From: Halobellus litoreus
Lineage (GTDB): Archaea > Halobacteriota > Halobacteria > Halobacteriales > Haloferacaceae
Direction: 5' to 3'
Assembly: GCF_024464595.1 (NCBI RefSeq)
Contig: NZ_JANHAW010000001.1
Coordinates: forward strand, 1,195,083 to 1,259,082
Length of the DNA: 64,000 bases
Shown here: positions 12,525-15,035 of the stretch, in pieces
How the letters are laid out: every line of letters starts with the position of its first letter
How positions within the stretch are numbered: position 1 is the first letter of the stretch
Program-made: the position numbers and the translations under genes
Notes under the pieces: generated by a model
What the model saw: only the letters and a program-made list of their open reading frames with translations
What the model was told of the DNA's origin: nothing
Database searches by the model: none

Positions 12525-12923
12525 GACCGGCCGCCCGTCCTCCGTCGGCGGCGCGACGTGGTCGATGTACGACTCGACGTCGGGTTCGTTGACGGTGACG
12601 TGCACGTGGATGTCGCCGAGTTCGTCGGGGTTGCCCACGGCGAAGTTGATCACGCCCTTGAACGCCGCCTGCTTCTTCAGCGCGAAGGAGAACCCCTCGT
12701 CGTCGGCGCGTTTGAAGAACTCCGTGCGGGCAGTCTCGAGGATTTCCTGCTCGTGGAGGCGTTCGGAGAACCGTTCCAGAGAGTGCGTTTCACCCACGAG
12801 CTCGCCCGGTCGGTGCTCGAACTCGACGTTCGGAAAGAGGCTTCTCACGGCGTCTTCGACCCGGTCCGTCACCTCGGTGTCGCGGACCGGCGCGACGATC
12901 CGCGCGTCGATGCGGTAGATCAT
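12504..12923 (-). CDS. UPF0201 family RNA-binding-like protein (COG1325)
   Basis: The 139-residue archaeal protein has the UPF0201 layout: an N-terminal ferredoxin-like part (IDARIVAPVRDTEVTDRVEDAVRSLFPNVEF) and a second one around KKQAAFKGVINFAV and IHVHVTVNEPDVESYIDHVAPPTEDG. COG1325 is described as a predicted RNA-binding/exosome-related family, but no reaction is known. The start overlaps the UPF0200 stop by four bases (ATGA), an arrangement kept in many archaea. Confidence 0.88.
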   Translation of the reverse strand: MIYRIDARIVAPVRDTEVTDRVEDAVRSLFPNVEFEHRPGELVGETHSLERFSERLHEQEILETARTEFFKRADDEGFSFALKKQAAFKGVINFAVGNPDELGDIHVHVTVNEPDVESYIDHVAPPTEDGRPVDPDERA

Positions 12924-13558
12924 CGCGACTCACCGGGGTCGGCCGCGGCTCTCGATTCGACATCCTCGCCGTTCGTGTCGACGACGCGAACGTACTCGTC
13001 GTCGGCGAGCGATTCGAAGTCGGCGTCGAGGATCGCCCGGATGCGCCCGCGGAACGCCGACAGCGAGTCGGTGTTCTCGACGACGACGTCCGCGCGCTCC
13101 ATCACCTCGCCCATCCCGAAGCCGAGTTCGCGCTCCTCGCGCTCGCGAAGCGCCTCTCTATCGACGTCGGAGTCGTCGCGGTCGCGTTCGAGCAGGCGGT
13201 CGGCGCGCGTCTCGAACGGGGCTTCGATGCTCACGAGCAGGAAGTCCTCGCCGAACGCCGCGCGAAAGCGGTCGAGTTCGACGTCCGAGCGTAGGCCGTC
13301 GACGAGTACGACGTCGCTCGTCTCCAGTTCCGACTCGATCAGCGGGAGCGACCGCTCGGCGATGGCCGCGGGGCCGTCCTCCTCGCGCAGCGTTCGCGCC
13401 ATCTCGCCGTGGTGTTCGGCGGGGTCGAAGCCGCGGTCGCGGCAGGCTTTCCGGATCACGTCGCCCATCGTGACGACCGGAACGTCCGCCTCGCGGGCGA
13501 CGGCGGCGGCCTCGCCCTTGCCGCTGCCGGGCAGTCCGACGGTACCGATGACCTTCAT
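12920..13558 (-). CDS. UPF0200 family P-loop kinase-like protein
   Basis: The 212-residue protein has an intact Walker A motif, GLPGSGKGEAA, at residues 8-18 and a VVLVDGLRSDVEL Walker B-like strand near residue 105. It resembles dephospho-CoA/adenylate kinases but is the separate archaeal UPF0200 family, whose substrate is not established. It is translationally coupled to UPF0201, so the two probably act together. Confidence 0.87.
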   Translation of the reverse strand: MKVIGTVGLPGSGKGEAAAVAREADVPVVTMGDVIRKACRDRGFDPAEHHGEMARTLREEDGPAAIAERSLPLIESELETSDVVLVDGLRSDVELDRFRAAFGEDFLLVSIEAPFETRADRLLERDRDDSDVDREALREREERELGFGMGEVMERADVVVENTDSLSAFRGRIRAILDADFESLADDEYVRVVDTNGEDVESRAAADPGESR

Positions 13559-13645
13559 TACGCGTCGATTCACGGCACCCGACCTTACGCGTTGCGCTCG
13601 GCGGAGCGGACGCACCGGGGCGCTCTCGACGCCGAACCCGTACTC

Positions 13646-13653
13646 CTTTTTAC
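13646..13653 (+). promoter_or_regulatory. TATA box for tRNA-Arg
   Basis: CTTTTTAC is centred about 28 nt before the mature tRNA 5' end, a normal archaeal tRNA promoter position. Confidence 0.5.
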
Positions 13654-13677
13654 CCGCGACCGATTTGACTGCCACGA

Positions 13678-13751
13678 GGGCGCGTAGCTCAGTCGGACAG
13701 AGCGTCGGACTTCTAATCCGATGGTCGCGGGTTCGAATCCCGTCGCGCTCG
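13678..13751 (+). tRNA. trnR: tRNA-Arg (anticodon TCT)
   Basis: The 74-nt sequence folds as a complete cloverleaf. The acceptor stem is GGGCGCG with CGCGCTC (one G-U pair), the D arm is GCTC/GAGC, the anticodon stem is TCGGA/TCCGA around loop CTTCTAA, and the T arm is GCGGG-TTCGAAT-CCCGT. The discriminator is G. CCA is not encoded and no intron is present. It reads AGA codons, and AGG by wobble. Degenerate copies of its 3' half follow downstream. Confidence 0.96.
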
Positions 13752-14086
13752 TGAAGATCGCCGAGCGAAGCGAGGCGTATCTGAACGCACCGGGCGGGAT
13801 TCGAATCAGAGAGCGAACAGAGTGAGCGACCGTGGTCCGAATCCCGTCGCGCTCGTGAAATCGAAGATTTCACTCGCGCGACGACTCCCCGCTCGCGTTG
13901 CTCGCGGGGATCCCGTCGCGCCGCGAGATCAACGAGTGAAGCGAGGCGTATCTGAACGCACCGTGCGGGATTCGGATCAGGGAGATCACGCGCAGCGGAG
14001 CGAGCACGTCCGACCGCGGGTCGAACCCCGCCGTGCTCGTGAAATTGCGGTCTGACTCGTGCGAGGACGGCTCACACTTCCGAAGC
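13752..14086. repeat. Repeat field of tRNA-Arg 3'-end copies
   Basis: A 22-bp identical copy of the tRNA 3' end (13734-13755) recurs at 13838-13859 with the GTGAA flank preserved. A more diverged copy of the T arm and acceptor strand lies at 14016-14045. Between them, a 53-bp imperfect direct repeat occurs at 13757-13809 and 13928-13980. No gene is present. The alternation of tRNA end and repeat suggests serial duplication, or att-site scars left by elements that integrated at this tRNA. Confidence 0.8.
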
Positions 14087-14094
14087 GTTTAATC
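14087..14094 (+). promoter_or_regulatory. TATA box for mdh
   Basis: GTTTAATC lies 27-34 nt before the mdh ATG, as expected for a leaderless transcript. Confidence 0.5.
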
Positions 14095-14120
14095 GAACTC
14101 CGACGCCTTCTCTACTCGAT

Positions 14121-15035
14121 ATGACGAAAGTCAGCGTGGTCGGTGCCGCCGGAACGGTCGGTGCCGCCGCCGGGTACAACCTCGCGCTCCGGGACGTCGT
14201 GGACGAACTCGTCTTCGTCGACATCCCCGAGAAGGAGGACGAGACGGTCGGACAGGCTGCGGACGCGAACCACGGCGTCGCCTACGACTCCAACACCGAG
14301 GTCGTCCAGGGGGGCTACGAGGACACCGCCGGATCGGACGTCGTCGTCATCACCGCGGGCATTCCGCGTCAGCCCGGACAGACGCGGATCGACCTCGCGG
14401 GCGACAACGCGCCGATTATGGAGGACATCGGCTCCTCGCTCGCCGAGCACAACGACGACTTCGTCTCAGTCACCACCTCGAACCCCGTCGACCTGCTGAA
14501 CCGGCACCTCTACGAGTCGGGCGACCGCGACCGCCACAAGGTGATCGGCTTCGGCGGCCGCCTCGACTCCGCGCGCTTCCGCTACGTGCTCAGCCAGCGC
14601 TTCGACGCGCCGGTGAAGAACGTCGAGGCGACGATTCTCGGCGAGCACGGCGATGCGCAGGTTCCAGTCTTCTCAAAGGTTCGCGTCGACGGCGCGGACC
14701 CCGAGTTCTCGGGCGACGAGCGCGAAGAGATCCTCGGCGACCTCCAAGAGTCGGCGATGGACGTCATCGAGCGGAAGGGCGCGACGCAGTGGGGGCCCGC
14801 AACGGGCGTCGCCCACACCGTCGAGGCCATCCTCCGCGACACCGGCGAGGTGCTTCCGGGATCGATCGCCCTCGACGGCGAGTTCGGGTACAAGGACACC
14901 GCCTTCGGCGTCCCGCTGGAACTCGGCTCCGACGGCGCCGAGGAAGTCGTCGAGTGGGACCTCGACGAGTACGAGCGGGAACTGATGGACGATGCGGCCG
15001 AGAAACTGTCCGAGCAGTACGAGAAGATCGCCTGA
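14121..15035 (+). CDS. mdh: Malate dehydrogenase
   Basis: The 304-residue NAD-dependent dehydrogenase belongs to the lactate/malate family. The Rossmann start [17 protein letters not shown] (about 5-21) is followed by the acidic residue VDIPEKEDE that selects NAD. The substrate-binding segments are [18 protein letters not shown] and the catalytic-histidine region [14 protein letters not shown]. The R-Q-P-G-Q-T-R loop, with its arginine, supports malate over lactate. It is the halophilic tetrameric type. The ATG is supported by the TATA box at 14087. Confidence 0.94.

Follow-up and report, generated by a model that had tools for sequence, protein, structure and literature searches.

The window analysed here is a 64,000-nucleotide stretch of the Halobellus litoreus genome (genome G000). 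At 13678-14086 of this window, a tRNA-Arg gene is followed by repeat units in the order tRNA, M2, M1 and M2-prime (Table 1). An M2 unit consists of a spacer, an inverted copy of the T-arm, a loop and a direct copy of the tRNA 3' half, while an M1 unit is made up of a hairpin, an inverted acceptor strand, another hairpin and a direct acceptor strand. The next gene downstream is, judging by its sequence, presumably a malate dehydrogenase gene (mdh).

Table 1. Features of the tRNA-Arg locus (window positions; 13968-13984 of the window correspond to G000:C1:1209050)
Feature	Position	Strand	Details
tRNA-Arg (anticodon TCT), source of every copy in the array	13678..13751	+	ARAGORN; Rfam RF00005, 73 bits
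First M2 unit, spacer ('A' region) with GCGAAGC mini-hairpin	13752..13794	+	
First M2 unit, inverted tRNA-Arg T-arm copy CGGGATTCGAATC	13795..13807	+	12/13 versus reverse complement of tRNA
First M2 unit, type I loop; conserved inner helix CAGRGAG...GCGACCGT, tandem G.A	13808..13833	+	
First M2 unit, direct tRNA 3' half copy GGTCCGAATCCCGTCGCGCTCG	13834..13855	+	one mismatch; 20/21 to tRNA, shuffle maximum 15
M1 unit	13856..13922	+	hairpin TGAAATC/GATTTCA, inverted acceptor, inner hairpin, direct acceptor
M1 inverted acceptor GCGCGACG	13876-13883	+	
M1 direct acceptor CGTCGCGC	13914-13921	+	
Second, degenerate M2 unit, spacer	13923..13965	+	48/53 versus first unit, offset 171
Second M2 unit, inverted T-arm copy CGGGATTCGGATC	13966..13978	+	
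Second M2 unit, loop AGGGAG..CGCGCAGCGGAGCGAGCACGTCCGACCG	13979..14017	+	covariance-model match C1:1209046-1209116, E 2.7e-14
Second M2 unit, degenerate direct copy of tRNA 3' half GGGTCGAACCCCGCCGTGCTCG	14018..14039	+	
Malate dehydrogenase-like gene (mdh), downstream	14121..15035	+	outside the system; synteny anchor

A sequence-only reading of the locus had pointed out three repeats: an identical 22-base recurrence of the tRNA end (13734-13755 and 13838-13859), a diverged copy of that end near 14016-14045, and a 53-bp direct repeat (13757-13809 and 13928-13980, 48 matches). All three are present. It had missed the two inverted T-arm copies and the acceptor-strand palindrome unit, and with them the fact that the 171-base offset equals one M2 plus one M1 unit. 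The longest exact repeat within 13678-14100 is 26 nt, compared to at most 15 in 500 dinucleotide shuffles. The mini-hairpin sequence GAGCGAAGCGAG of the first M2 spacer (13763-13774) has no second occurrence in the window. The M1 unit folds strongly (-38.9 kcal/mol, z -4.3, 0/300 shuffles as good), and units of the M1 kind are also found at the tRNA-Arg locus of other Halobellus species. The foldability of the two M2 units in the window is weak (z -1.8 and -0.8, the second unit being decayed). When the tRNA and the first M2 unit are folded together, the inverted arm pairs with the T-arm of the tRNA itself in the predicted minimum-energy structure; thus, the tRNA and the copy may compete in folding. 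On the opposite strand, a mechanical open reading frame of 317 aa (12920-13873, minus) joins an upstream kinase-like gene to the antisense of tRNA and tail, 'DGIRTRDHRIRSPTLCPTELRA'; automatic annotation could extend the kinase too far at this place or predict proteins that do not exist.

The repeats far exceed what chance would produce, and they are not peculiar to this locus. A search of the G000 genome with its own array returned matches behind other tRNA genes. By a threshold test, 22 of the 44 tRNAs detected with ARAGORN carry a tail, and scoring by inspection gave 22 of 43; for G009, a close relative, the same threshold gave 16 of 43. The tails share a common anatomy: a spacer hairpin precedes an inverted T-arm copy, and a structured loop separates the latter from a direct 3'-half copy, both copies matching the tail's own tRNA. 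The match is specific to the host, as the ten acceptor nucleotides of the copy agree with their own tRNA at 9.74 of 10 positions and with other tRNAs at 4.23 of 10. The boundary is sharp: identity to the tRNA is 0.15-0.29 at the three bases preceding the copy and rises to 0.85 and 0.99 at tRNA positions 52 and 53. Across many genomes we collected 209 direct copies over 204 tRNA loci, 194 of them accompanied by an inverted arm, in a pool that is enriched for tailed loci since many were fetched with a covariance model. In a separate scan, units ended in the acceptor strand of the host tRNA in 123 cases and in that of a foreign tRNA in three, with two more apparently foreign rows left out as real tRNA-Met genes.

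Two further properties of the tails can be mentioned here. Runs of four or more T within the first 60 nt follow 11% of tailed tRNAs versus 29% of the others; with regard to a terminator role for the tails, this slight shortage of T runs is suggestive at most. In addition, one extra base, mostly C, recurs at T-loop positions 57-59 of the copies in many tRNA types (Leu-caa, Ser-cga, Lys-ttt, Pro-cgg, Phe, Val-cac, Gly-tcc, Arg-ccg and Ser-tga). It could be a junction scar or a selected bulge.

We used a covariance model (R1), built from 25 type I hairpins, to follow the tails across the phylum. R1 matched 283 of 292 Halobacteria genomes, representing 76 of 77 genera, with a maximum of at least 17 scored matches per genome; the other nine genomes had none. 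In a search that sampled the phylum, all 51 positive genomes belonged to Halobacteria, and none of the 242 genomes outside the class gave a match. A model-free check of tRNA flanks in three non-Halobacteria genomes was positive in 3 of 30 cases, of which one was a neighbouring real tRNA and two were a different partial repeat behind tRNA-Ala(CGC). Within the class, 29 of the 30 best matches lie directly downstream of a tRNA on the same strand, and the last lies behind an intron-containing tRNA-Arg. Among 47 further fetched loci a tRNA is present in 45, the other two being one and the same place behind a truncated tRNA-Gly. One locus (L325, ~570-1070) holds a truncated or interrupted tRNA-Gly(TCC) with a full M2-M1-M2-M1 tail. 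Even a seemingly tRNA-free match (C1:1088425) follows a tRNA-Pro(CGG), which was missed by the Rfam search and found by ARAGORN. Dispersed elements of the MITE, PATE or REP kind were rejected as an identity for the tails, all 30 best matches and all 47 further loci being placed behind a tRNA or a tRNA fragment. The tail at tRNA-Arg is absent from three divergent Halobacteria with AT-richer flanks (G012, G008 and G032; L301-L303), and G012 and G032 have no R1 match anywhere. The tails are a class-wide family of structured repeats in Halobacteria, and the locus in the window is an ordinary member. No Rfam family covers them, and we found no earlier description in the open-access literature, a scope that most subscription papers fall outside. 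The family is apparently undescribed so far.

Comparison of relatives revealed considerable turnover. At the tRNA-Arg locus of twelve Halobellus genomes the modules occur in the orders M1-M2, M2-M1, M1 only, M1-M2-M1 and M2-M1-M2. Compared to G000, G009 carries exact duplicates of the Leu-taa (111 bp) and Val-cac (146 bp) tails; other tails are lost or decayed, namely Lys-ctt, Leu-tag and His in G009 and Gly-ccc in G000. Longer arrays include four identical 111-bp units behind Lys-ttt (L293) and an alternating I-II-I array behind Leu-taa (L296). The sequence-only reading had offered, as one option, a tandem expansion of the tRNA end together with adjoining DNA. This was right in part: the exact whole-unit tandem duplications in relatives bear out its outline. 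The Phe tails of G000 and G009 have kept their arms and swapped the loop, and the loop GCGAGCAAATCTGTGATTTGCGAGTG is common to Arg-gcg of G000 and to Phe and Ser-tga of G009, so that a near-identical 26-28-nt loop occurs at three different tRNAs in two species between differing arms. Moreover, the Lys tail of L293 contains a complete tRNA-Arg end, which directly attests to rare transfers of segments from one tRNA locus to another. Individual tRNAs gain and lose their tails, so no single tail looks essential.

The other option given by the sequence-only reading was that the 3' end of the tRNA is an att site scarred by integrative elements. The copies begin in the T-arm, a region that serves some tyrosine integrases as att core. 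A precedent also exists in Haloquadratum, the prophages of which are bounded and marked by partial copies of tRNAs, 22 and 43 bp long (PMC3119063). However, related genomes have the same repeat field without inserted elements, which the sequence-only reading itself had named as evidence against an att scar: comparison of twelve Halobellus genomes revealed no element between the copies, and adjacent copies lie within one unit (~60-180 bp). Furthermore, tails of this kind occur behind about half of the tRNAs in the genome and throughout the class, and att scars lack the conserved fold and the inverted arm of these units, which measure 60-150 bp. In relatives with a tRNA-to-mdh distance of 0.4-8 kb the extra DNA lies beyond the array, and its genes differ from one relative to another; we take them, by reading, to include Rieske-like, amidohydrolase-like, HxlR-like regulator, PKD-repeat-like and DJ-1/PfpI-like genes. 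An ORF of ~2400 aa with PKD-like and right-handed-helix-like repeats sits just past the tail, between tRNA-Arg and mdh, in one of these genomes (G004, L078). Among the ORFs between tail and mdh we recognised no integrase by reading, which again speaks against an att scar.

The integrases of G000 itself point the same way. None of its nine integrase matches lies at the tRNA-Arg(TCT) locus. Three are found less than 1.2 kb from a tRNA, at tRNA-Gly(gcc), Phe and Leu-tag; by coordinates, the latter two are on the upstream side, and the only one downstream of its tRNA sits at tRNA-Gly(gcc), which is tailless. This tRNA is a more likely real integration site in G000. The integrase match there (G000:C1:765207-766493) has an internal TAG and lies ~0.7 kb downstream of the tRNA. 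Finally, blastn with the array as query returned no match among 50,697 phage and 72,556 plasmid records, a search that distant units could escape, and a phage or plasmid origin was rejected on this result. The att-scar interpretation fails; we consider it extremely improbable.

As expected of copies, the arms show covariation with the host tRNA (11 double-change cells versus 2.9 in shuffled data, 0/500). More informative is the inner stem, which is not derived from the tRNA. Its second pair is C-G in 36, T-A in 33 and G-C in 24 of 96 type I units and unpaired in three; the 93 paired units compare with a mean of 45 and a maximum of 59 in shuffles. The 5-bp stem of type II units occurs as GCCAG/CTGGC, ATCAG/CTGAT, GCGAG/CTCGC, GAAAG/CTTTC, GCAAG/CTTGC, GTCAG/CTGAC and GGAAG/CTTCC. 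Type I units also conserve a non-Watson-Crick arrangement of GA opposite GA, and mini-hairpins of the form XYGNAY'X' (GNA) are present in 122 of 146 loops versus 28 in shuffles. Taken together, these observations indicate that a folded single strand is either under selection or the form through which the units propagate.

The same data weigh against a purely neutral expansion, in which replication slippage between tRNA-end repeats would generate the units and template switching at the quasi-palindromic T-arm would incidentally produce the palindromes, with no selection involved. Exact tandem duplications and contractions fit this explanation well, as do degenerate remnants such as Gly-ccc in G000 and the second M2 unit in the window. 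Nevertheless, strong covariation of an inner stem that does not come from the tRNA, together with conserved mismatches, is at odds with it, and presence in 283 of 292 genomes is difficult to account for unless the units are selected or actively spread. We therefore regard neutral expansion as rather improbable.

Whether the folded strand is RNA or DNA is less clear-cut. Deviations in the arms comprise 71 G.U and 45 A.C when all scored arm columns but one are counted, and 51 G.U and 42 A.C when the outermost column is also left out, in units that are not phylogenetically independent. The inner covarying pair shows no G.U at all in 96 units. There is no clear excess of G.U over A.C; a constraint acting on RNA only should leave more wobbles, which counts weakly against an RNA reading. 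A serious rival is a selfish or recombinogenic DNA hairpin. Without any RNA function, the units would fold as DNA single strands in the course of replication, conjugation or repair; a putative enzyme or template switching would copy or move them, with the GTTC of the T-arm as a universal landing site. Besides the similar tolerance of G.U and A.C, several features suit this rival: the GNA triloops, since GCGNAGC/GNA triloops form exceptionally stable DNA mini-hairpins, the near-identical loop shared by three tRNAs of two species with different arms, the foreign tRNA end within the Lys tail, and the extra base that recurs at the T-loop junction of copies from many tRNA types. However, the conserved non-Watson-Crick tandem GA/GA makes sense on one strand only, the units are confined to tRNA tails, the array has no match in the phage and plasmid collections, and no candidate enzyme was found. 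On balance we hold a DNA hairpin of this kind to be possible, if somewhat unlikely.

Among known systems, the closest is the 178-bp repeat of the E. coli tyrTV/tpr/rttR locus (RtT, RF00391), which has the same anatomy. The tyrT/rttR repeat has been known since the first tRNA genes were sequenced. Downstream of tyrV, the E. coli K-12 genome has three direct copies of the tRNA-Tyr 3' end (19/22), which start in the T-loop and recur with a 178-bp period. Each tRNA end is followed at a distance of ~60 nt by an inverted GGGGAAGGAT that is able to pair with ATCCTTCCCC in the copy; the repeat also holds gcgaagcgcgcagcgc as well as GCGAAGC/GCGCAGC motifs. The annotated ncRNA rttR (1287066-1287236) ends exactly where the first copy ends. 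The haloarchaeal units likewise lie downstream of tRNAs in tandem arrays that combine a direct copy of the 3' end with an inverted copy. In contrast to E. coli, where a single locus is involved and the loop is longer, about half of the tRNAs in the haloarchaea surveyed carry tails; their sequence is unrelated, and their loops contain type I or II inner stems and are joined by M1 acceptor units. The RtT model had no match in G000, whereas the E. coli control was matched. The tails are therefore best filed with rttR-type tRNA-tail repeats, not as members of RtT.

Other similarities are more limited. In Methanopyrus kandleri, a palindrome CGTTA(N)9TAACG, reported as species-specific, occurs downstream of about half of the tRNA genes (PMC5217627). 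It resembles the tails as a palindromic motif just past about half of an archaeon's tRNA genes; unlike them, it is short and fixed, with neither a tRNA copy nor direct 3'-end copies. Partial tRNA copies of prophages and islands, as in Haloquadratum (PMC3119063), are also direct 3'-end copies downstream of a tRNA, but they enclose kilobases of foreign genes, usually with an integrase, and have no inverted arm or tandem hairpins. Haloarchaeal MITEs, PATEs and small mobile repeats (PMC3119063) share with the tails a short, non-coding and palindromic nature and a variable copy number; they are dispersed genome-wide, whereas tails occur only at tRNA ends and derive their arms from the host tRNA. 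Two non-Halobacteria genomes of the phylum (L380 and L387) have a copy of the 3' part of tRNA-Ala(CGC) plus flank behind that tRNA. In contrast to the tails, this repeat is found at a single tRNA, starts in the variable loop and shows no inverted T-arm; it is a second, unrelated case of an archaeal tRNA-tail repeat. Bacterial REP and REPIN sequences are short, non-coding, palindromic and variable in copy number as well, and they are dispersed.

The explanation we favour combines class-wide tails that turn over by recombination, arms formed by fold-back, and a read-through RNA of the rttR type; as a whole, we judge it about equally likely to be right or wrong. Units would multiply and vanish through recombination or slippage between identical copies of the tRNA end, and occasional template switches between tRNA loci would spread loops. 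Fold-back copying at the GTTC of the T-loop may make the inverted arm or correct it to fit the host tRNA. We know of no haloarchaeal data on stem-loop extension of that sort. For human Pol theta, stem-loop extension from very short 3' pairing has been described (PMC11292364). With the exception of this fold-back step, which we infer, the part of the explanation that concerns origin and turnover is well supported by the turnover data. As for function, the analogy with E. coli, the orientation of the units, which is always sense, and the conservation of their fold suggest that the tail is most likely read through from the tRNA promoter, and that it then most likely folds and is cut at the tRNA-like 3' ends, yielding small structured RNAs. 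Candidate roles for such RNAs are trailer protection, insulation of the downstream gene or regulation.

A more elaborate possibility is an integron-like or CRISPR-like array system anchored at tRNAs, with a dedicated enzyme and a tRNA-matched set of small RNAs. A haloarchaeal enzyme would then recognise the folded T-arm hairpin on one strand and insert or excise hairpin units of 60-150 bp behind tRNAs, and the units would yield small RNAs. We consider such a system very doubtful.

In the light of this finding, the E. coli tyrT/rttR repeat is no longer a curiosity but one case of an architecture that recurs. The finding also carries a warning for annotation, as tails look like att scars or partial tRNA genes and give rise to spurious ORFs on the antisense strand. 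Haloferax and Halobacterium offer tractable systems in which to address the role of the tail in tRNA maturation, transcription read-through and DNA recombination.
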